DNA of 64,000 nucleotides, taken from positions 61,650 to 125,649 of IMG/VR virus record IMGVR_UViG_3300024346_000014. One strand, given 5' to 3'. Every line of letters begins with the position of its first letter. Position 1 is the stretch's first letter. Positions 2,056 through 64,000 of the stretch are shown here, piece after piece. A program made the translations under genes and the position numbers. The notes under the pieces are model-generated. The model worked only from the letters and a program-made list of their open reading frames with translations, was not told the origin of the DNA and did no database searches. This DNA is from a virus.

Positions 2056-2547
2056 TTAAAGTTGACCTCTAAGATAAGATAATATTACCTCTTTTTCCTG
2101 GTTCCAAACCTTAGCGAAATCTGGATTTAAACCAATAGAATCCTGATTATCTTTTATATCAGCAAACTTAATCTGCTTTGCCTCTTTGCTGATACCGCCT
2201 AGTCTTCTGGCTTCAAGTAATTTTCTTGCTTTACGATTTAACAAAGGAAAATCCTGTTTTACAAAAACATCTGTTAATTCTATAACCATCTTTAAGATAT
2301 ACTCTGCATCTTGACTAGTCCATATTTTATGTAAAGCAACTCTTAATTGCTCAATTGTTACCTCCGTATCTTCAATGACATCATGTAACAATGCAGCTGC
2401 AATTTGACATTCACTCCCACCTTCTTCTTCAATACGTTTAGCTACTCTAATAGGATGAGTAATATATAAGTCATTTGAATACTTACGGGTCTGTTCTCCA
2501 TGAGCAGCCGTTGCTAATTCTAAAGTTTTTTGTAATGGTTGAGTCAT
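2056..2547 (-). CDS. SpoT/Mesh1-like HD hydrolase (putative (p)ppGpp hydrolase)
   Basis: The 163 residues cover a single HD domain of the RelA/SpoT hydrolase type. Visible signatures are AAHGEQTRK (14-22), YITHPIRVA with H31, ALLHDVIEDT with H55-D56 and E59-D60, and a C-terminal FADIKDN with D130. There is no synthetase, TGS or ACT domain, so it matches small stand-alone alarmone hydrolases. The expected reaction is removal of the 3'-pyrophosphate from (p)ppGpp, which would blunt the host stringent response. It has its own early promoter (2559-2609). Another nucleotide substrate is possible. Confidence 0.8.
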   Translation of the reverse strand: MTQPLQKTLELATAAHGEQTRKYSNDLYITHPIRVAKRIEEEGGSECQIAAALLHDVIEDTEVTIEQLRVALHKIWTSQDAEYILKMVIELTDVFVKQDFPLLNRKARKLLEARRLGGISKEAKQIKFADIKDNQDSIGLNPDFAKVWNQEKEVILSYLRGQL

Positions 2548-14572: not shown

Positions 14573-16234
14573 ATGCTTAAGAGGCTAACTTTATTATCGA
14601 AAATATCAATAGTTTTACTTTTTTTATTAATGACATTTATATTTGTACTAAATATCACTTTGATATTTGAATTAATAGAAGTTACTTATATGACTTCTTC
14701 AATGTGTTTTATATGCATGCTATTATCAATACCGTTTATACTTATTATAATCAAGGATGCTTTAAAAAACCAAAGACTAGAAGCGGTTAAAAGAAATACA
14801 ATTGAAAACATATTAAACGAGTCATCTTTGATTTCAAAAACAGATAAAGAAGGAACGATAACTCACGTCAATAAATTGTTCTGTGATTCATCTGGATATA
14901 AACCCCATGAGTTACTAGGTAAGAATCATTCTATGTTAAGTTCAGGTAAGCACGACATTAACTTTTGGAAAAAAATGTATAATGCCACGGTTGACCACAA
15001 AACAATATGGAATGAAATAGTGACAAATAAAAGAAAAAATGGAAAAACTTATACAGTAGATTCATGGATAATGGCAGAATTTGATAACAAGGGAAATCAT
15101 ATAGGCTTTATGGCAGTCAGGCATAATTTAACTGGATTGTACGAGTCTTTAGAAAAACTAAAGAATAAAGAAGATGAAATGACAGGTATCATGAATGCAA
15201 TAAATCAATCTAGCGCTACTGTAGAATTTTGCACAAATGGATTTGTTATAGATGCAAATAACAAGTTTTTAGAAATGACAGGTTATCCTACTCTTCATGA
15301 AATACAGGGAAAGCATCATACTATATTCATGGATGAGAGAGAATATGATAATAATAACGAGTATGAAATGTTTTGGAAAAGCATAAAAGAAGGAGTCATT
15401 AAATATGGAGAATATATGAGAATACGAAAAGATGGCTCTATTATTTGGGTAGCAGGTACGTATACGCCTATAATAGATTCTAAAGGTAAAACTGTTAAAA
15501 TTCTTAAGATAGCGAACGACATTACAGGCTCAATAAATCAAAAAATAGAATTAGAAAGAAAAAATTCATATTTAGAACATGCATCTAAAATATTAAGACA
15601 TGATATGCATAGTGGTATAAATACATATATTCCTCGAGGCATATCTTCATTTGAAAGAAGGCTTATCAAGTTTTCTGAAGAAAACGATATACACCCTGAG
15701 GCTTTAGAAAAAATGTTTGAAGGACCTATGAAATTACTTAAAGGTGGTTTAGCTCATTCTCAAAAAGTATACAACGGAGTTAAAGAATTTACTAACTTAG
15801 TAAAAAAAGAATCTACTATGGAAATAGAAAAGGCAGATTTAACACATATACTTAAAATTTATTTAAAAAACACTGCATATTCAAGCAGTGTTTCAATATC
15901 TGAATTAGGAAACGAAATTGTAAATGTTTCATTATTCTGCACGGCAGTAGATAACTTAATAAGAAATGGATTAAAATATAACGATAGTAATACTAAATTA
16001 GTTAAAGTGTATAGAAAAAAAGAAAATATAATAGTAGAAGATAATGGAAGAGGAATGACGAAATCAGAATTTGAAGAATATTCAAAGCCATATACTAGAA
16101 AGCGCAATAATACTGAATCTGGAAGTGGACTGGGATTAAATATATGTATAGCTATTATGAAAGAACATGGATGGAAATTAAACCTCTTAAAAGCGCGAAA
16201 AGGAACTAAACTGGAAATATCTCTAGATAAATAA
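14573..16234 (+). CDS. membrane PAS histidine kinase
   Basis: The 553-residue protein has two membrane spans (about 10-32 and 43-62) and two PAS domains (about 75-190 and 205-325, each with a GY..E..GK.H motif). A dimerisation helix follows with phospho-acceptor H343 (LRHDMHS). The ATPase domain has an N-box (DNLIRNGLKYND, N461/N465), G1 DNGRGM (490-495) and G2 SGSGLGLNI (516-524). All catalytic boxes are present. A late-type box precedes it, and a receiver gene follows. The ligand of the PAS domains is unknown, and a sensor kinase of this kind is very unusual in a phage genome. Confidence 0.9.
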   Translation: MLKRLTLLSKISIVLLFLLMTFIFVLNITLIFELIEVTYMTSSMCFICMLLSIPFILIIIKDALKNQRLEAVKRNTIENILNESSLISKTDKEGTITHVNKLFCDSSGYKPHELLGKNHSMLSSGKHDINFWKKMYNATVDHKTIWNEIVTNKRKNGKTYTVDSWIMAEFDNKGNHIGFMAVRHNLTGLYESLEKLKNKEDEMTGIMNAINQSSATVEFCTNGFVIDANNKFLEMTGYPTLHEIQGKHHTIFMDEREYDNNNEYEMFWKSIKEGVIKYGEYMRIRKDGSIIWVAGTYTPIIDSKGKTVKILKIANDITGSINQKIELERKNSYLEHASKILRHDMHSGINTYIPRGISSFERRLIKFSEENDIHPEALEKMFEGPMKLLKGGLAHSQKVYNGVKEFTNLVKKESTMEIEKADLTHILKIYLKNTAYSSSVSISELGNEIVNVSLFCTAVDNLIRNGLKYNDSNTKLVKVYRKKENIIVEDNGRGMTKSEFEEYSKPYTRKRNNTESGSGLGLNICIAIMKEHGWKLNLLKARKGTKLEISLDK

Positions 16235-16240
16235 ACATAA
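16226..16240 (+). promoter_or_regulatory. T4-type late promoter box
   Basis: GATAAATAAACATAA overlaps the end of the kinase gene, about 34 bases before the receiver start. It is followed by the tandem AACAAACAAT repeat. It may give the receiver extra expression. Confidence 0.5.
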
Positions 16241-16273
16241 CAAACAATAACAAACAATAATATTTAAATCCAT

Positions 16274-16711
16274 ATGATTGACTCAATAATGTTAATAGAC
16301 GATGAAGATCTATTTCACCTAGTATTTGAAGATGCATGCAGTTTATTAGATATAACATTATCTTTACGTGCAATTAACAGTGCTGATAGTGCTGAAAAAA
16401 TGTTTAAAAAATGGTTCGATGGAATAGAAAAACATGAAAAACCATCATGTGTTTTCGTAGACTTAAATATGATAGGTTCTTCTTTCGATGGAATAGAACT
16501 AATTAGAAGAATAAATTTTAATTACGGTAATCATGTGGTTATTGGAATAATATCATCTAGCGATGAAGAAGAAGAACAAGCAAGAGCAATAAGCGCAGGT
16601 GCACAATTCTGGATAATTAAATCAGATGAAATAGAACCTAGGCTGGAAGTTTTTCTAAAGGATTATCCAGGATATGTAGATAGATCGAATTCTTTTAAGA
16701 TATACAAATGA
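16274..16711 (+). CDS. single-domain response regulator (CheY-like)
   Basis: The 145 residues form one receiver domain with acidic pair D9-D10 (LIDDED), phospho-acceptor D63 (FVDLNM), S95 in IISSSD and K116 (IIKSD). No output domain is present, so it should act by protein contact, like CheY or Spo0F. It lies 39 bases after the kinase gene and overlaps the next gene by 4 bases (ATGA), forming a kinase-receiver-membrane protein operon. Confidence 0.9.
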   Translation: MIDSIMLIDDEDLFHLVFEDACSLLDITLSLRAINSADSAEKMFKKWFDGIEKHEKPSCVFVDLNMIGSSFDGIELIRRINFNYGNHVVIGIISSSDEEEEQARAISAGAQFWIIKSDEIEPRLEVFLKDYPGYVDRSNSFKIYK

Positions 16712-17286
16712 TGAAAATAACTTTTTGTAAAGAAACTAAAAATAGGCTTTTAGAAATAGGCAGTGAAAAGGGCATATATATCGAGGGAAATATCTTAAAG
16801 TTAATAGAGTTCGAAGGCGATGAGGAAGTAGAGGCGTATGTGAAAAAAGCGACTAAGTTACAAAAGGAAAAACAACGAAAGCGCTTAGATGTAACTAAAC
16901 AGGTTCAAACTCAAAATAAGCAATTGATAATTGTCAAGGAAGAAATTCAAGAAGCAAACTCTAAATTAGAAGCAGCTTTAACCAACGCTGAACATTCTAA
17001 AGAAAGCGCTTTAAAAGATTTAGATATTCTTCAGAAAAAAACTCAATTTGAATTAGTTACAGTTATTGTAAAAATATCATTAGCTATCATAATAGGAGTT
17101 GGCGTTTTTACAACTGCTTTGTATATGTTTTCTATATACTATGGAAAAGAAACTCAATTAATAGGAAATACCTGGAGTAACATGTTTGGTATATTATTAA
17201 CTAACGCATTTAGCATAATAGGAACTATTATGGGAGTCAAATACGCTACTGGTGAAAATAGAAAGTCTTCACAGAAATACGATTAG
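16708..17286 (+). CDS. coiled-coil membrane protein of the two-component operon (192 aa)
   Basis: An N-terminal small domain (about 1-45) precedes a long charged coiled coil (about 50-110) and two membrane spans (about 115-137 and 150-172). The tail is short and basic. It overlaps the receiver gene by 4 bases and is probably translationally coupled. This architecture would suit a membrane partner of the receiver, but no family is recognised. Its stop shares TTAG with the convergent gene. Confidence 0.7.
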   Translation: MMKITFCKETKNRLLEIGSEKGIYIEGNILKLIEFEGDEEVEAYVKKATKLQKEKQRKRLDVTKQVQTQNKQLIIVKEEIQEANSKLEAALTNAEHSKESALKDLDILQKKTQFELVTVIVKISLAIIIGVGVFTTALYMFSIYYGKETQLIGNTWSNMFGILLTNAFSIIGTIMGVKYATGENRKSSQKYD

Positions 17287-17657
17287 AAATCTATTTCTAA
17301 ATCATCATATTCCTGCGCGTCATCTGATGGAATATCATCAACATAGTTGTCATTCCCTGTATCTAAATCATCCAGTGTTGAATCTAATATATCTTTACCG
17401 AACCTATTATAAAAGGGATATAGTAAATCTTCAATGTACAAAGAACGTGTATTGTCTGTTTTTACAAGTTTCATTGAATTTACTATGTCATTATGATTTT
17501 TTTGGAGAAAATCATTTATTAACCTAGCTCCGTCTACGTAATTATCCATAGTAGCAGCTTGAATAGCTATCTTCTTAAGACTTATTAATGGAATTAGTAT
17601 ACTATTTGAATCTTCATTAGATTCAAATATCTCTATATGTTTATGCTTCAGATTCAT
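17283..17657 (-). CDS. acidic protein with capsid-targeting-like N-terminus (124 aa)
   Basis: The N-terminus MNLKHKHIEIFESNEDSN is short and basic, with an I-F-E site that fits the (I/L)-x-E cleavage pattern of T4-type prohead proteases. The C-terminus is strongly acidic (DDLDTGNDNYVDDIPSDDAQ). The gene overlaps the upstream 424-residue gene by 17 bases. A core or internal head protein is plausible; the family is unknown. Confidence 0.65.
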   Translation of the reverse strand: MNLKHKHIEIFESNEDSNSILIPLISLKKIAIQAATMDNYVDGARLINDFLQKNHNDIVNSMKLVKTDNTRSLYIEDLLYPFYNRFGKDILDSTLDDLDTGNDNYVDDIPSDDAQEYDDLEIDF

Positions 17658-18915
17658 CTTCGTCGAATGGATTTTCTAAATCAAAATCGAAATCTAACAT
17701 ATCTTCAAAGTCATCTCCTAATTCTTCTTCAGGTGCTTCAATAGCTTTTTCCATTTCTTTGTTGATATCATTGACATCTCCTGTTAAGATAAATTCTGCA
17801 AAACTATATAAAGCTTTCGATTTACCGTGTATTTTAATTACATCAGCAATAGATGCATATTGGCTTAAATTTCCTCCATATATATTAAAAATATCACCTA
17901 TTTCGTTTAAGTCAGCATCTTCATAATCTCCGTTAGCTTTAAGGTATGTTAAAAATGCTTTATAGTACTTATTAACAGTTTCAGCAACATCAGGGTTAGA
18001 TGAGATGATATTAGACAAATCAGCTATTTCACTAGGATCTGCGTCATCTCTTATTATTAACTGGGCATATTTCTCTGCAGCTTTTTGTTTTCTTTTTCCA
18101 AAAAGTTCATTTAATATTTTAGTAAATCTATCTGAAAAATCGGCAATGAAATTTCCACCTGTAATTTCTCTAGATTTTACTCTTTTTCTTTTAAGAGCTC
18201 TTGCTTTACCAACTCCAACTCTTCTTGGAACAGGTACCTCTCTACCTCCCATATCTTGATAAGTAGTTTCGTAATCCTCTATTTCAGGATCTAGTATATA
18301 AACGTCTATTTTTCCATCAGCTGCTGTTGGAAAATTCTTAAAGTCATTTCTTTTTCTTCTAGGCGCATCTCTATTGTTAGGATCTACTGGATATGTCAAA
18401 TCTCCTTGATAAGCTTGCCAGTCTCTCAAGATTCTTCCTTCTGCGTCCATTGTAAGTACTCTGTATTTTTTACCTCCACCTTGAGCTTTTTTACCCCATG
18501 CGCTTTCTTTACTATAAATATAATCGAAACGAGGAGCATGACCAGCATATTTACCACCTGGTTCAGGCACAGCGAGTAATATTCTGCAATCTCCCCAAGG
18601 AAGTTTTTCAAGATCTGCTAAGTAACCAGGTTGTTTATATGGATGAACTCCATAATTGTTACCTAGTAATTCTGTTTTTTTCATTCTAAAATGATCTAGT
18701 ACGTCTACAGCGTGTGTAGGTCTATTTTGTGCAATAGGAGGAAGTTCAGCTTGTCTTTGCGACCCTCCTTTAAACGTAAATGGTTTTATTTTTTCTATCG
18801 CATCTGGTAAATTATGTATTACCTTTATTAGTTTTTTAGGCACGCCTAACTTACTGAGAGTGCTTGCCATTTCGTTTATTGAAAACTCACTAAATCCTTT
18901 TAAATAGTTCTTCAT
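17641..18915 (-). CDS. probable virion-internal protein (424 aa)
   Basis: It begins MKNYLKGFSEFSINEMASTL, with a candidate (I/L)-x-E cut after FSINE. A central segment is beta-rich (PWGDCRILLAVPEPGGKYAG), a basic stretch follows (KARALKRKRVKSRE), and the C-terminal 40 residues are very acidic. A second LNE site lies in the middle (RFTKILNE). A late-type box precedes it. No enzyme family is recognised. Confidence 0.65.
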   Translation of the reverse strand: MKNYLKGFSEFSINEMASTLSKLGVPKKLIKVIHNLPDAIEKIKPFTFKGGSQRQAELPPIAQNRPTHAVDVLDHFRMKKTELLGNNYGVHPYKQPGYLADLEKLPWGDCRILLAVPEPGGKYAGHAPRFDYIYSKESAWGKKAQGGGKKYRVLTMDAEGRILRDWQAYQGDLTYPVDPNNRDAPRRKRNDFKNFPTAADGKIDVYILDPEIEDYETTYQDMGGREVPVPRRVGVGKARALKRKRVKSREITGGNFIADFSDRFTKILNELFGKRKQKAAEKYAQLIIRDDADPSEIADLSNIISSNPDVAETVNKYYKAFLTYLKANGDYEDADLNEIGDIFNIYGGNLSQYASIADVIKIHGKSKALYSFAEFILTGDVNDINKEMEKAIEAPEEELGDDFEDMLDFDFDLENPFDEDESEA

Positions 18916-18955: not shown

Positions 18956-19663
18956 TTATATTTTTATAGTATACGCAGTAACCTTACCAATGCCTTTCAA
19001 TTTAGTTAAAGGTTCACATGTATGTAGTTGTAATTCAGATAACATTCTTCCAGATCTCTTTCTTTTACCTGAATAACACTTATGACTATAGTCAGTTATA
19101 TCTATTTTAAATTTATTATCTTCTAAATATTTTACTATTTTTTCTTCCTGAGGTTTATCTAAAGAATCTGTAAAACTAAAAGCTAGTTCACCGGCCTTTG
19201 AAACAGTTGATTCCATTCGAGAAGCAGTATTGACAGTGTTTCCAAAATAATCCCATAATTTTTTATTTTGAATATTAACCTTCTTTTTATACAAAGGTCC
19301 CCATGATATCCCCATTCTAATAGACATGATTTGACCTTTTATTTTAATTGGATTCTTAACTAAATCTTTTTGTATTTCAATACCTGTTAAAATAGCTTTG
19401 TATAACGAATCTGTTCCATCCCATCCAAGCATATAACTATCGCCTATTGTTTTTATTATGTCACCTCCATTTTTTGGAACTATCTTTTCCATTCTTTTTT
19501 CATGTTCTTCTAACGCGTCAAACATTCCGTCTTTGTGTAAATTCCATAATTTAGAACTAGACTTTACATCTGTAAATAGTATGGCTTGATTTTTCTGTTG
19601 TAGTTTATCTAAATCAGATACGCTTTCAAATAATTCAAACTGAGTAATTAGGCTATTATACAT
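18956..19663 (-). CDS. class III adenylate cyclase with capsid-targeting-like N-terminus
   Basis: Residues 26-190 form a class III nucleotidyl cyclase domain. The metal ligands are D32 (LFTDVKSSSKLW) and D75 (KTIGDSYM), and the transition-state pair is N145 and R149 (FGNTVNTASRM). The base-selecting positions K71 and D138 match adenylate rather than guanylate cyclases (K/D instead of E/C). The end LKGIGKVTAYTI is the usual last strand of the domain. There is no membrane or sensor domain; the N-terminus MYNSLITQFELFE instead resembles a capsid-targeting peptide ending in L-F-E. The expected product is cAMP. cCMP or cUMP, as made by Pycsar cyclases, is an alternative. Confidence 0.88.
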   Translation of the reverse strand: MYNSLITQFELFESVSDLDKLQQKNQAILFTDVKSSSKLWNLHKDGMFDALEEHEKRMEKIVPKNGGDIIKTIGDSYMLGWDGTDSLYKAILTGIEIQKDLVKNPIKIKGQIMSIRMGISWGPLYKKKVNIQNKKLWDYFGNTVNTASRMESTVSKAGELAFSFTDSLDKPQEEKIVKYLEDNKFKIDITDYSHKCYSGKRKRSGRMLSELQLHTCEPLTKLKGIGKVTAYTIKI

Positions 19664-19675
19664 ATAAAATATAAT

Positions 19676-19692
19676 TTATATTATTTATAAAA
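19676..19692 (-). promoter_or_regulatory. T4-type late promoter box
   Basis: On the minus strand TTTATAAATAATATAAA lies about 13 bases before the cyclase ATG and contains the exact TATAAATA. Confidence 0.65.
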
Positions 19693-19787: not shown

Positions 19788-20855
19788 TTATTTTAAGTAC
19801 TCTCTAGAAAAAGTACCATCTTTATATAGTATTATTACTATTCCAGAAAAATAACTAGGGTTTATTTCTTGCCCACTAATGTTTAAGTACCTAACTACTT
19901 CTTTTTCTCTTTGTCTATTATCTACGTATATTGGACCGAATATTTCAAAGTTACCGTCCCAATCTCTTTGAATTAGTCTGTAATAGTTTATTTCATGAAG
20001 TGGATTCATTTGAACACATGAATAATACTGTTGTGTATTTGAATTACCTGCGGCCGTTTGTGAATCTATTAAATTCCATTCATATGCATCTATACTCCAT
20101 TCTACATCAAATGCATCACTGTTAGATTCAGACATAGTCGACCAACTTAAAATATTATAATCATTTTTTTGTTCACCTCTAAAATATATTAATTCAACCG
20201 GTAAAGGATTGTTAACTGATCCTAACAGATATATGTCGTCTATCCACCATTCTTCGCCTGGCCTATCTACCAATGATAAAATATCAACAGCCACTTGAGT
20301 AGTTCCAAAAGGTAGAATTAATTCTAAAACGGAATATCCATCCCCCGTTAGCGTTCTATTTCCTCCTCCAGCTGGTGTAAATATATCTAAATTTCCATCT
20401 ACATTTACTGAAGCAATTTGTGAATTATAATCCCAATAAGCATTGTTAAAACCAGTGACTCTTAGTTCAGAAGAATAGTTAGAACCTCCATCGGTAGATA
20501 TTTGTACTTCTACATAATCGCTAGCATCTACGCCAGACGATCCTCCCGTTGATGTAAATCTATATGCTCCTAAATTAATTTGTATTTTATATTCCTTAAA
20601 TGGATCTAATCCTGTTATGTTTGGTAAAGAATACCAATCATATTCGTCTGTACCGCCGCCAGTTCCATAAATAACAGCTGATGTAGGTGCTGATTTTGAA
20701 GCGTTTGTAAAAAATCCAGTAGTCGGTTCTGAAAAGTACCAATTTCCATTCCAATCAAAATCTTCCATACGATCAAATTTAACAGTATCAGTATATGATT
20801 GGGAATAAAAAAATTGAGATAGTGATAAGGTTAAAAGTAAAACTAACTTATTCAT
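19788..20855 (-). CDS. secreted Bacteroidota-type surface protein with T9SS-like C-terminus
   Basis: A Sec signal peptide (MNKLVLLLTLSLSQFFYSQS) precedes a beta-sandwich region with aspartates and glycines. Then come the linker NPLPVELIYFRGE and a fibronectin-like module (ILSWSTMSESNSDAFDVEWS..AGNSN..YYRLIQRDWDGN). The last 45 residues (VVRYLNISGQEI..GIVIILYKDGTFSREYLK) look like a type A sorting domain of the type IX secretion system. This architecture is common in Flavobacteriia surface adhesins and unusual for phages. It is flanked by late genes and its own terminator. Confidence 0.75.
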   Translation of the reverse strand: MNKLVLLLTLSLSQFFYSQSYTDTVKFDRMEDFDWNGNWYFSEPTTGFFTNASKSAPTSAVIYGTGGGTDEYDWYSLPNITGLDPFKEYKIQINLGAYRFTSTGGSSGVDASDYVEVQISTDGGSNYSSELRVTGFNNAYWDYNSQIASVNVDGNLDIFTPAGGGNRTLTGDGYSVLELILPFGTTQVAVDILSLVDRPGEEWWIDDIYLLGSVNNPLPVELIYFRGEQKNDYNILSWSTMSESNSDAFDVEWSIDAYEWNLIDSQTAAGNSNTQQYYSCVQMNPLHEINYYRLIQRDWDGNFEIFGPIYVDNRQREKEVVRYLNISGQEINPSYFSGIVIILYKDGTFSREYLK

Positions 20856-23881: not shown

Positions 23882-24047
23882 TTTCTTTGTGATCAATATC
23901 GTCTTCTGAAATAGAAATGGGCATTCCTTTTAGTTGATCGTTTACGCATTTCCAACAAGTAACAGCCGTTGCTTCAGAGCTAACGTTTTTTACGGTTTCT
24001 TCGCATATTTTACAATCTAAATCTTTTCTACTGTATGATTTTTTCAT
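23871..24047 (-). CDS. small zinc-ribbon protein (58 aa)
   Basis: C12-KIC15 and C31-WKC34 form a typical two-knuckle zinc ribbon, followed by an acidic tail. It overlaps the next gene's ATG and the upstream DUF192 gene's stop, so it is part of the operon. A nucleic-acid or protein-binding adaptor role is possible. Confidence 0.7.
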   Translation of the reverse strand: MKKSYSRKDLDCKICEETVKNVSSEATAVTCWKCVNDQLKGMPISISEDDIDHKENEE

Positions 24048-24460
24048 ATTGAAAGTTTAATACTTTTATTTCCATGCCTAGCATACCATCCTGATCTAGT
24101 CTCAACTGCGTATTGTGCAGGCTTTTTGCATGTAAAAATTTTTGGGTAACTATCAGGAGACATTGTCATAGAATCTATTAATTCTTTATTTGAATTAAAA
24201 AAAAGTATGTCTAAGGGAAAACTAACATCTTTCATCCAAAAAGATGCCTGTATCTCTGAAGGATACACGAATAGAATACCTTCATTATCAGAAGGCTCTT
24301 TTTCATCTTGATATCCTTTAAGTTGAGATTGAGGAGTAGACGCTATTTTTAGCTTCATTGGACATTTTCCTAAATTACAATCAATTGTCTTGTTGTCTAC
24401 TGTATCCTGTTTACAGTAGTTTTCAAATAGAAGAATTGATCTTTTGTAATTAGAGTCCAT
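24044..24460 (-). CDS. DUF192 protein with capsid-targeting-like N-terminus (138 aa)
   Basis: Residues 30-138 match DUF192/UPF0127: GILFVYP, SFWMKDVSFPLDILFFN and the terminal YAVETRSGWYARHG. The family is small and beta-rich, with no proven activity. The first 14 residues (MDSNYKRSILLFEN) resemble the (I/L)-x-E terminated N-peptides of neighbouring proteins. A cysteine-containing linker (NYCKQ..DCNLGKC) follows. Confidence 0.75.
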   Translation of the reverse strand: MDSNYKRSILLFENYCKQDTVDNKTIDCNLGKCPMKLKIASTPQSQLKGYQDEKEPSDNEGILFVYPSEIQASFWMKDVSFPLDILFFNSNKELIDSMTMSPDSYPKIFTCKKPAQYAVETRSGWYARHGNKSIKLSI

Positions 24461-31949: not shown

Positions 31950-33926
31950 ATGAAATCTTTTAAGGACATATTAAACGAAGACTCAATTGAAGGAAAACCA
32001 GATCAAATGGCTGTTCCGTATGCAGATACTCTCGCACAAAATGTAAATGTAAGAGAAATACCGGCCGGATCAAATAGAAGCCCTGAAATAGACAGATATT
32101 TTGATTTAGTAGGATTGAACAATAGAAAAAAAGGAAAGAATGGTTATCCATGGTGTGCTGCTTTTGTTTACGCAATGTTTGATGATTTTTGTAAAAAACT
32201 AGGATTAAAAAATCCAGTTATTAAAACAGCCGGTGTAATGAAACACTGGAATAAGGCAGATTCTTCTTTAAAAATACCCATTGCTAAGGCTAGAAATAAC
32301 CCTGGTTTAGTAAAACCTGGACAGGTTTTTATTCAAAGCAGAGATGGCGGAGGTCATACTGGTATAGTAACCGCGGTGGACTCAAAAAATAAAACTTTTA
32401 CCACAATAGAAGGAAATACAAACGATAAACTTTCAGGAGAAGGTCATCGTGTAGGTAGAAATACCAGAAAACTTTCACAGGGAAGTTTAATAGGTTTCAT
32501 AGATTATTTTAAAGGACATAGAAGTGAAAAATTTGAAAAGACAATATCTACTGTTGTTGCAGATGCTCCTACTGATTATTCTAGTGAAGAATACATCGGA
32601 GGTCTTTCTAAAAACGATATTAAAAAGATACAATTAGTCTTAATAAAATTAAACTACGATTTAGGCACCTTTGGACCTAATAAGGATGGAGTCGATGGTG
32701 AGATAGGTACTAAAACAACTGATGCAGTTAATGATTGGAAATTAAAAAATAACATGAAAGCTGATTCTATCATAGACAAAGATTTATACACTTTAATGAC
32801 TAAGGATAGTAAATTTAAAGATAAGTTAACATCAGGTGGAAATAGACAAATTGACATAGGATTAGATAATTATACAAGCCCAGTGCAAAAAATGGTTAAT
32901 AAACCTATCAAAGTGATAATGCCGGGTTTATTTCCAAATAAAATAATAACAGTTGATGCTACCAATGTTTCAAAGGATCCAGACCTCGTAATAAAACGAG
33001 CTATTATAGAGAATACAGGAACGGCTAGTAAATTTTCTGATTTGATTCTTGAAAGGAACATATTTAAGAGAATACGAGATGCTAAAAGAGCAAATGATAC
33101 AAAATTAGCCGATTATTACAGAGATGGTAGAGTAAAAACCAGTCCAATAGATGGGACTGGACCATCTAACACGGCTGATATCAAGAACATAGTTAGTTCT
33201 AAACCTGAAGTTGATATAATTTATAACAAAGAATTAAACGTTTTTTATCTAAAAGCCTTTAATTCAAGCGCAATAGAGGCTTTAGGAACAGCTGATATTA
33301 TTAAAATGGAGCCTAAGGATTTTAAAGAATTACAAATCGCATTTAAAGATGCGGCACCTAATAAAACGCAGACACCTAGTCCTGAAGCAAATACACTAAC
33401 TGCTAATGTAAATTCTACATTATCGAGCGTTAAGTCTATTCCAATGAACGATAGAGAAAAAACAATTAAAGGAGCGGCTATAGCCAATGCTTTAGTAAAA
33501 GACTTAAATGTTACTAAAGAAGTTGCAGCAGGTGTGGTTGGAAATTTATGGGCAGAAAGCGGACTAATACCGGATAGAATACAAGGATCCGGCGTAAAAA
33601 GAGGAACTCTTCCTCAAGCAAATAATGGAGGTTACGGATGGGCTCAATATACTCATCCTAGTTTAAAGACTGACTTAATAGCGTTTGCTAAGAAAAAAGG
33701 AGTAGATCTAAATACCCAACCGATGACAGATGAATTAAATTATGAATATTTGAAACATTGGATATCTAAAAACAGCAGTAAATTCTCTACGCTAAAATCG
33801 CAATCTGATGTTAGAAACGCAACTAATTATTTTTTAACTAAATATGAAAGACCTGCTGATCAATCTGAAAGAGCCTTGGATAAAAGAGCAAATTTCGCAA
33901 ACACTGTCTATTCAGAAATGGCTTAG
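31950..33926 (+). CDS. CHAP amidase / peptidoglycan-binding / tail-lysozyme enzyme (658 aa)
   Basis: I choose the ATG at 31950, giving MKSFKDILNEDSIEG, a short peptide with an I-L-N-E site. A CHAP domain follows (about 45-200) with C69 (PWCAAFVYA), H136 (GGGHTGIV) and N156 (EGNTN). A peptidoglycan-binding module lies at about 228-300 (IQLVLIKLNY..DGEIGTKT). The C-terminus (about 510-650) resembles phage tail lysozymes (AAGVVGNLWAESGL, GYGWAQYTHPS). The enzyme should cut both peptide and glycan bonds of peptidoglycan. The targeting-like N-terminus suggests it travels in the virion for entry rather than only for lysis. Confidence 0.85.
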   Translation: MKSFKDILNEDSIEGKPDQMAVPYADTLAQNVNVREIPAGSNRSPEIDRYFDLVGLNNRKKGKNGYPWCAAFVYAMFDDFCKKLGLKNPVIKTAGVMKHWNKADSSLKIPIAKARNNPGLVKPGQVFIQSRDGGGHTGIVTAVDSKNKTFTTIEGNTNDKLSGEGHRVGRNTRKLSQGSLIGFIDYFKGHRSEKFEKTISTVVADAPTDYSSEEYIGGLSKNDIKKIQLVLIKLNYDLGTFGPNKDGVDGEIGTKTTDAVNDWKLKNNMKADSIIDKDLYTLMTKDSKFKDKLTSGGNRQIDIGLDNYTSPVQKMVNKPIKVIMPGLFPNKIITVDATNVSKDPDLVIKRAIIENTGTASKFSDLILERNIFKRIRDAKRANDTKLADYYRDGRVKTSPIDGTGPSNTADIKNIVSSKPEVDIIYNKELNVFYLKAFNSSAIEALGTADIIKMEPKDFKELQIAFKDAAPNKTQTPSPEANTLTANVNSTLSSVKSIPMNDREKTIKGAAIANALVKDLNVTKEVAAGVVGNLWAESGLIPDRIQGSGVKRGTLPQANNGGYGWAQYTHPSLKTDLIAFAKKKGVDLNTQPMTDELNYEYLKHWISKNSSKFSTLKSQSDVRNATNYFLTKYERPADQSERALDKRANFANTVYSEMA

Positions 33927-62640: not shown

Positions 62641-64000
62641 ATGCCAATCAAAACAACTAGAAAATACATAAATCTATCAGTAGATAGATTAACTATTGGA
62701 AATGGAGCATTTACTCTACCTATAACCGACGGAAGTTTAGGTCAAATTTTAGCAACTGATGGAGCAGGGAACGTAACATGGGAAAATGCGTCCGGTGCTT
62801 CTCAAAGTTTAGAAGACACTTTAATTATAGGAAACACAACAGGTACTCGAAATATTGATATTTCAACAGGAACAGAAATATTATTCAATGGAGGCCCTGT
62901 TAAAATTCATGAAGATATAAGCTCTGTTTTAGAAAAATTATACTTAGAGGCTCCGGAAGCAATTGAGATGCTCTCTAGATCAATGCTTCTAGAGGATACT
63001 TCAATTGGAGGTCATCGTATAATGTTTGGAGTAGAACAAGGTACTCATACTCCTTTCATACAAAGTCGCAATGGAGCAACAGGTTTTTCAGGAACTATAG
63101 ATTTAGCACAAGGAGCATTTCCGTATTATTTAACTGCTAATAGAACATGGCGCATGCCTGATGAAAACGGAACAGTAATGGTTGGAGAAGCATTTAATAC
63201 ATTAGTTGCAAATCCTACTTCTTCGGAGGACGGGTACTCTTTAGTCTGGAATAATTCAGCAAGCGAATTTACTCTAGCAGCAACGTCTATTGGAGCACAA
63301 GGCGCAACTGGTATTCAGGGAATAATGGGAAGTCAAGGCGCAACTGGTATTCAGGGAATAATGGGAAGTCAAGGTACAACTGGTACTAATGGAGCTCAAG
63401 GTACTACAGGTGCTAATGGTTCTCAAGGTACAACTGGTACTAATGGAGCTCAAGGTACAACTGGTACTAATGGAGCTCAAGGTACTACAGGTGCTAATGG
63501 AGCTCAAGGTACAACTGGTACTAATGGAGCTCAAGGTACAACTGGTACTAACGGAAGTCAAGGTACTCAAGGTACTAACGGAAGTCAAGGTACTCAAGGT
63601 ACTAACGGAAGTCAAGGTACTTCAGGTACTAATGGTACAAATGGAGCTCAAGGTACTTCAGGTACTAATGGAAGTCAGGGAATAGCAGGTACTCAAGGTA
63701 CTAACGGAAGTCAAGGTACTACAGGTACTAATGGAGCTCAAGGTACTCAAGGTGCTAATGGTACTCAAGGTACTCAAGGTACTAACGGAAGTCAAGGTAC
63801 TACAGGTGCTAATGGAGCTCAAGGTACTCAAGGTGCTAATGGTACTCAAGGTACTACAGGTACTAATGGTACAAATGGAGCTCAAGGTACTCAAGGTACT
63901 AACGGAAGTCAAGGTACTACAGGTACTAATGGAGCTCAAGGTACTCAAGGTGCTAATGGTACTCAAGGTACTACAGGTACTAATGGAGCTCAAGGTACTC
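62641..64000 (+). CDS. tail fibre protein with collagen-like repeats, cut by window edge
   Basis: The frame is open from ATG 62641 to the window end (453 codons). Residues 1-217 are a paralogue of the start of the 60133-62598 fibre, including IGNGAFTLPITDGSLGQIL and DENGTVMVGEAFNTLVANPT. From residue 218 on, the sequence is uninterrupted Gly-X-Y (GAQGTTGTNGAQGTQGANG-type), a collagen-like triple helix shaft. The receptor-binding tip lies outside the window. Confidence 0.85.
   Translation, partial: MPIKTTRKYINLSVDRLTIGNGAFTLPITDGSLGQILATDGAGNVTWENASGASQSLEDTLIIGNTTGTRNIDISTGTEILFNGGPVKIHEDISSVLEKLYLEAPEAIEMLSRSMLLEDTSIGGHRIMFGVEQGTHTPFIQSRNGATGFSGTIDLAQGAFPYYLTANRTWRMPDENGTVMVGEAFNTLVANPTSSEDGYSLVWNNSASEFTLAATSIGAQGATGIQGIMGSQGATGIQGIMGSQGTTGTNGAQGTTGANGSQGTTGTNGAQGTTGTNGAQGTTGANGAQGTTGTNGAQGTTGTNGSQGTQGTNGSQGTQGTNGSQGTSGTNGTNGAQGTSGTNGSQGIAGTQGTNGSQGTTGTNGAQGTQGANGTQGTQGTNGSQGTTGANGAQGTQGANGTQGTTGTNGTNGAQGTQGTNGSQGTTGTNGAQGTQGANGTQGTTGTNGAQGT
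63292..64000 (+). repeat. coding Gly-X-Y tandem repeat
   Basis: Units of 9-18 bases such as GGAGCTCAAGGTACT and GGTACTAACGGAAGTCAA repeat for at least 700 bp and continue past the edge. Long minus- and other-frame openings in this stretch are by-products of the repeat. Confidence 0.9.

Follow-up and report, generated by a model that had tools for sequence, protein, structure and literature searches.

The cyclase gene and its neighbourhood

The window analysed here is a stretch of 64,000 nt (bases 61650-125649 of a virus record of 125,649 bases), which carries on its minus strand, at 18956-19663, the entire gene of a free-standing class III adenylate-type cyclase of 235 amino acids. The gene is preceded by a late-promoter-like box (TATAAATA, 19682-19689, minus strand), located 18 nt upstream of the ATG; its codons 1-13 (MYNSLITQFELFE, 19625-19663, minus strand) form a putative capsid-targeting propeptide with a predicted cleavage after E13, and residues 23-235 (18959-19597, minus strand) form the catalytic domain. 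The start codon is secure, since the reading frame is closed by a TAA five codons before the only plausible ATG and the following Met already falls within the catalytic domain.

The assignment to class III rests on a profile match, on active-site residues and on a predicted fold. The Pfam model Guanylate_cyc (PF00211) matches residues 23-155 with an E value of 1.4e-21 (77.3 bits, cut-off 21.9), and the protein has a single domain, without any sensor domain. Class III cyclases were also the matches among PDB sequences. The residues expected of such enzymes are present: two metal-binding Asp (D32, D75), the transition-state residues N145 and R149, and the adenine-binding residues K71 and D138. 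The pair K/D is the adenine-selecting pair of class III cyclases, and ATP is therefore the predicted substrate. Among 22 distinct phage cyclases, D32, K71, D75, D138 and R149 are invariant, and N145 is found in 21. The C-terminus, LTKLKGIGKVTAYTIKI, is the usual last class III strand (L-K-G-x-G-K-x-x-A-Y); a Pfam helix-hairpin-helix match to residues 219-233 (E 0.03) falls on this ordinary strand and was rejected as an indication of DNA binding. An AlphaFold2 model built with 11 phage sequences reached a mean pLDDT of 75 and a pTM of 0.75, with the catalytic core mostly between 80 and 95 and residues 1-16 mostly below 50, and Foldseek searches with this model returned class III cyclases, the best being 5oyh (E 1.6e-12), a guanylyl cyclase converted to ATP specificity. 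The ORF thus encodes a class III cyclase with a complete ATP-type active site, while activity on ATP itself is inferred. In six homologous cyclase pairs with measurable dS, dN/dS was about 0.03-0.2 (one pair was saturated), and the protein is therefore under purifying selection.

The next gene (17641-18915, minus strand) encodes 424 amino acids of unknown function and has both its own TATAAATA box and a start, MKNYLKGFSEFSINE, that resembles a classic capsid-targeting sequence (CTS) of phage T4. It adjoins the cyclase also in the related contig L003, and a resembling ORF with a CTS-like start lies near the cyclase in G005. A further protein of unknown function (17283-17657, minus strand, 124 aa) begins with the CTS-like MNLKHKHIEIFES, or with MKHIKLFEN in L003. 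On the plus strand, 14573-17286 holds a two-component set, consisting of a membrane PAS-PAS histidine kinase (553 aa) and a stand-alone response regulator (145 aa), together with a 2-TM protein (192 aa); L003 retains the three genes, and the regulator is found in G005 as well. A 355-aa protein (19788-20855, minus strand) has a signal peptide and a C-terminal part like secreted proteins of Bacteroidota; L003, in which the cyclase is inverted, lacks it between the corresponding neighbours. Farther away, a DUF192 protein (24044-24460, minus strand) with the CTS-like start MDSNYKRSILLFEN is kept in L003 and L004. Peptidoglycan hydrolases with CTS-like starts (MKSFKDILNEDS; MYIKNYNNWNRLFENK) are encoded at 31950-33926 (plus strand) and, outside the window, at G000:C1:37026-37826, as CHAP plus phage tail lysozyme and as cell wall hydrolase; it is possible that they are ejected enzymes which open the wall. 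A SpoT-like HD domain standing alone (2056-2547, minus strand, 163 aa) may be a phage ppGpp hydrolase, and would then be a second gene touching host nucleotide signalling.

The late-type box

The 7-mer ATAAATA is the one most enriched before genes with CTS-type starts (25/50 against 70/401, P 1e-6, in three related genomes). Such a box precedes the cyclase in G000, G002 and G007; in G002 the cyclase runs opposite to the adjacent genes and still has a box of its own. Over the genome as a whole, the exact TATAAATA shows no enrichment (43 occurrences, 39 expected) except upstream of CTS genes, and in the phage group L022-L034 no TATAAATA box lies before the cyclase, which has a different upstream sequence.

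The N-terminal tag of the phage cyclases

The N-terminus of the window cyclase (MYNSLITQFELFE, followed by S) resembles the CTS of T4, with L-F-E as residues 11-13. The reading of these residues as a propeptide draws on the 22 homologues, on the low pLDDT of the segment and on the cleavage rule of the T4 protease, which cuts after L/I-x-E (PMC9026906). All 22 distinct phage cyclases have a CTS-like start, followed by a linker of very variable length before the catalytic domain. On these homologous enzymes, two types of tag can be found, one of LFE/IWE type and one of the type MKTFIEFINES or MKSFKEFINES. The window protein starts with MYNSLITQFELFES; the corresponding starts are MNMITSFKLFES in L003, MKYLVSYPIWES in L014, MKHLLSYPIWES in L016, MSNYINSYAIWEN in L169, MKWINEFKFFES in L029, MKRISGFRLFEA in L032, MKHINNFRLFEA in L035 and MRWINDFRVFES in L184, MKRFTTYINES in L174, MKSFKEFINES in L176 and MKTFIEFINES in L196, as well as MKYLSNWKQINEA in L197 and MQHLDKYKYFQINEA in L010. 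Most of the tags end in I/L-x-E, a few in V-F-E or F-F-E. For L022, L029 and L033 an internal ATG was used as the start, because the preceding stretch is promoter-like and close relatives start there.

Both IPII and IPIII of T4 begin with MKTYQEFIAE, as found by pattern search and annotation, and the tags of L196 and L176 are nearly identical to it. In IPIII the first 10 residues are enough for packaging; positions 4 and 7 are important for targeting, and 8 and 10 for trimming (PMC9026906). Most phage cyclases have hydrophobic and aromatic residues at the positions corresponding to 4 and 7 (I4 and F7 in L013 and L028-L035). The window protein contains the I-x-x-F core as well, shifted by two residues relative to these positions; it is an outlier among the 22, being two residues longer and lacking Lys2. 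An anchored N-terminal profile gave its tag only a modest score, reached by 1.7% of internal segments; this profile is dominated by CTS of the FINES type, and several other LFE-type cyclase tags score lower than that of the window.

Is the tag more than a chance resemblance?

Two fixed patterns, [FYWI]..[FYW][ILV].E and [ILVF][FW]E[SADNT], were searched within residues 2-23, with the cyclases excluded from the protein counts. In four phage contigs they match 27/562 and 21/562 proteins, where internal segments give expectations of 4.4 and 3.9. As both patterns were chosen after inspecting four phage genomes, four further contigs were held out, in which each pattern matches 13/345 proteins against 3.5 and 2.5 expected (P 8e-5 and 2e-6, shared N-termini removed); this answers the objection only in part. 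Among proteins encoded next to the bacterial cyclases, the patterns match 1/815 and 4/815. Dozens of unrelated proteins in the cyclase-bearing phages, held-out contigs included, thus carry the motif. De novo motif discovery on all N-termini of the genome returned a general Lys-rich start, with the cyclase ranked low, and was discarded as not specific.

The fixed patterns match 20 of the 22 phage cyclases; the exceptions, L010 and L197, end nevertheless in INE, followed by A. When only cyclases first seen after the patterns had been fixed are considered, 6/7 match, while none of the 75 bacterial ORFs read does (P 2e-8). It should be noted that the 22 phage cyclases are related sequences, so these counts exaggerate how many independent events there were; that the CTS type has switched among homologous cyclases argues better for selection on the tag than the counts do. 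Taken as a whole, the comparison makes a strong case that the N-terminus of the window cyclase is a T4-type CTS, which we regard as likely; packaging and cleavage remain inferences drawn from sequence and comparison.

The original prediction, made from sequence alone, had described a class III adenylate cyclase with D32, K71, D75, D138, N145 and R149 and without a sensor domain, a targeting-like N-terminus ending in L-F-E, and a T4-type late box before the gene. The cyclase held with respect to profile, residues and predicted fold, and the N-terminus with respect to the 22 homologues, the held-out enrichment, the bacterial controls and the comparison with T4 IPII and IPIII. The box held for the window gene and two relatives; late expression is inferred, as there are no transcript data.

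The phage clade and its bacterial relatives

Scans of IMG/VR revealed many contigs with a free-standing homologue of 210-240 aa, and another one is encoded by the 634-kb uncultured phage LR745206. All cyclase-bearing contigs are metagenomic; MT838110 was excluded, as it looks like a GC-rich bacterial contig. The 22 distinct phage cyclases, which are 32-84% identical, group together in one clade with a support of 99/98, and a long branch sets them apart from the 86 other catalytic domains of the tree (85 bacterial and one from Pelagibacter phage HTVC008M); the bootstrap of this tree was not fully settled. The bacterial sequences come from one scan of 84,980 species, from which 75 ORFs were read; in nearly all of these, several domains are present and the catalytic part starts after residue 100. 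The three bacterial rows nearest to the phage clade (L117, L121, L131) could have been phage contigs binned by mistake, but a check showed that they are bacterial.

Proposed mechanism and alternative readings

The sequence and its comparison support the cyclase family, the ATP-type active site, the clade-wide CTS-like N-terminus, the late-type box and purifying selection. Beyond these, we consider it likely that the window gene encodes a cyclase which is made late, packed into the head, trimmed, injected and active in cAMP synthesis at once, with packaging, activity and benefit being inferred. In such a scheme, a T4-type capsid-targeting propeptide would stand in place of the sensor or membrane part usual in bacterial cyclases. 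The gene would be transcribed late in infection, and the enzyme, presumably a homodimer, would be directed by its first 11-13 residues into the prohead core, where a gp21-type protease would trim it after E13. It would then be stored in the mature head without ATP, be ejected alongside the DNA and start at once to synthesise cAMP in the new host. No cyclic-nucleotide receptor domain (PF00027) was found in 14 phage records, and a host receptor is therefore the likely target; cAMP would most likely act on host cAMP receptors (CRP-type regulators), thereby preparing the cell for the phage. Dimerisation, packaging, cleavage, ejection, activity and the effect of cAMP are all inferred, and neither virion proteomics nor an enzyme assay exists. 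A bolder reading, which we hold to be somewhat more likely than not, extends this to a whole clade of T4-like and some huge phages: these would package and inject a ready-made adenylate cyclase and, ahead of all phage gene expression, reset the cAMP signalling of the host or disarm its cyclic-nucleotide immunity. Injection, a rise of host cAMP and disturbed cyclic-nucleotide defence had already been proposed in the original prediction, and they still are inference only.

The simplest objection, that an ordinary cyclase happens to carry a random LFE near its start, can draw on the shortness of the motif and on the occurrence of the LFE type at about 0.5% of bacterial N-termini. The comparison has largely refuted it, with CTS-like starts on 22/22 phage and 0/75 bacterial cyclases and the later-seen cyclases behaving alike, and we hold it to be very unlikely. 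Alternatively, the enzyme might act late and only within the producing cell, raising cAMP there, the N-terminal peptide being, for example, a membrane-binding helix or a relic. The late box would agree with this, as would the known pelagiphage cyclases without a CTS, which presumably act inside the producing cell (PMC9599517). On the other hand, motif and spacing match the T4 IPIII tag and recur in unrelated proteins of the same phages, the tag is kept while the linker changes and the CTS type switches, and an L/I-x-E end is unnecessary for a role at the membrane; such a purely intracellular function therefore seems unlikely to us.

The main rival, which remains possible, is counter-defence: an injected cyclase would flood or compete in cyclic-nucleotide immunity (CBASS, Pycsar, Panoptes-like systems) rather than act on host regulation. 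This reading is compatible with packaging. T4 internal proteins have been described as diverse defence proteins against host attack enzymes, IPI acting when injected (PMC3012670), and the principle of decoy cyclic nucleotides is known from bacterial immunity (PMC12657218). Against it stand the ATP-type active site and the absence of direct evidence; 3',5'-cAMP is, to our knowledge, not a signal of CBASS, Pycsar or Panoptes-like systems. A phage-borne Pycsar-like system stopping competing phages finds some support in PADLOC PycC models, which match the window cyclase weakly (9e-9). The match is unspecific, because the membrane-type cyclase of HTVC008M matches these models far better (1e-24). 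Moreover, K71/D138 is of the ATP type, no PycTM or PycTIR partner lies next to the cyclase (the nearby 2-TM protein has no notable PADLOC match), and PF00027 is absent from the 14 phage records mentioned above. We consider this option very unlikely, and the comparison with Pycsar cyclases suggested at the outset accordingly found no support, the base-choosing residues being K/D and no effector gene having been found.

Comparison with known systems

Injection of proteins which block restriction or modify RNA polymerase is known from T4. Its IPI-IPIII and Alt have, like the phage cyclases, an N-terminal propeptide ending in L/I-x-E; Alt is an enzyme injected for host takeover (PMC9026906), and the packaging route is established for enzymes, naturally for Alt and by engineering for a nuclease and beta-galactosidase (PMC9026906, PMC3012670). 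The cargo proposed here differs in being a second-messenger synthase instead of an internal protein or an ADP-ribosyltransferase, and packaging of the cyclase has not been demonstrated.

Adenylate cyclases have been reported in pelagiphages (PMC9599517). Those of HTVC008M (AGE60353) and other pelagiphages share with the window protein the class III domain and the phage origin, and the pelagiphage cyclase lies near a histidine kinase, as in the window. The HTVC008M protein, in contrast, has 611 aa, a long N-terminal region with membrane segments (which we take to be CHASE2-type), no CTS and a position in a curli gene cluster; in the catalytic part, the identity is 27%. A membrane N-terminus of this kind is excluded in the window protein, as its catalytic domain starts at about residue 23. 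Bacterial class III adenylate cyclases (the nearest mostly from Bacteroidota; solved examples are CyaC, CyaB and Ma1120) have the same catalytic fold and residues, but nearly all are multidomain, and the N-terminal motif was not found in the 75 ORFs read. With Pycsar PycC the window cyclase has the class III catalytic domain in common, and differs in its ATP-type residues, its CTS, the lack of an effector partner and its phage-borne location.

The open-access literature searched (subscription papers and preprints were not covered) yielded no paper that describes a cyclase as CTS-tagged or injected. The initial statement that no described phage injects a cyclase agrees with this, although phage adenylate cyclases as such had already been reported (PMC9599517). 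Phage cyclases and injected phage enzymes are known; what is likely new is the CTS-tagged second-messenger synthase, i.e. an ejected takeover enzyme of T4 type with a new activity. That phages can degrade or sequester second messengers of the host is known. If our reading is true, the cAMP level at time zero would be a direct target of infection, raising the question of how cAMP affects the success of the phage, in particular in marine Bacteroidota, whose cAMP biology is little known. The sequence rule of a CTS placed before an enzyme could also be used to search uncultured phages for injected takeover enzymes.

The phage and its head genes

By its terminase, portal, baseplate, helicase, primase, DNA polymerase part and two sigma factors, the virus is a distant relative of T4; it is a marine virus of bacteria, probably a T4-like phage. 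The host phylum still is a guess, as the promoter of Bacteroidota type is only slightly over-represented (20 against 13); marine Bacteroidota are the probable hosts.

A gp21-type protease and gp23 were searched in the window's own record, and neither was found. The first genes of this record align with the G007 genes directly after the block of gp23, protease and tail genes, and both are likely missing because the record is cut at this block. Among the related contigs, gp23 is above the cut-off in G007, G010, G014 and G016, and the S77 (gp21-type) prohead protease in G007, G014 and G022 (weak in others, G010 included), so that both occur together in G007 and G014, and in the latter contig the cyclase and gp23 are about 5 kb apart.

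The record ends (63274-63993, minus strand) in frames made up of short repeats (STLSTLTSVSTL...), which may reflect an assembly end or belong to a repetitive fibre gene. In several contigs of the groups L041-L045 and L205-L207, a protein of 660-740 aa has the S77 prohead protease at its N-terminal side; in L041 and L043 it also carries NIAYSEYLAENLDK-like repeats in tandem, giving the impression of a protease fused to a scaffold.
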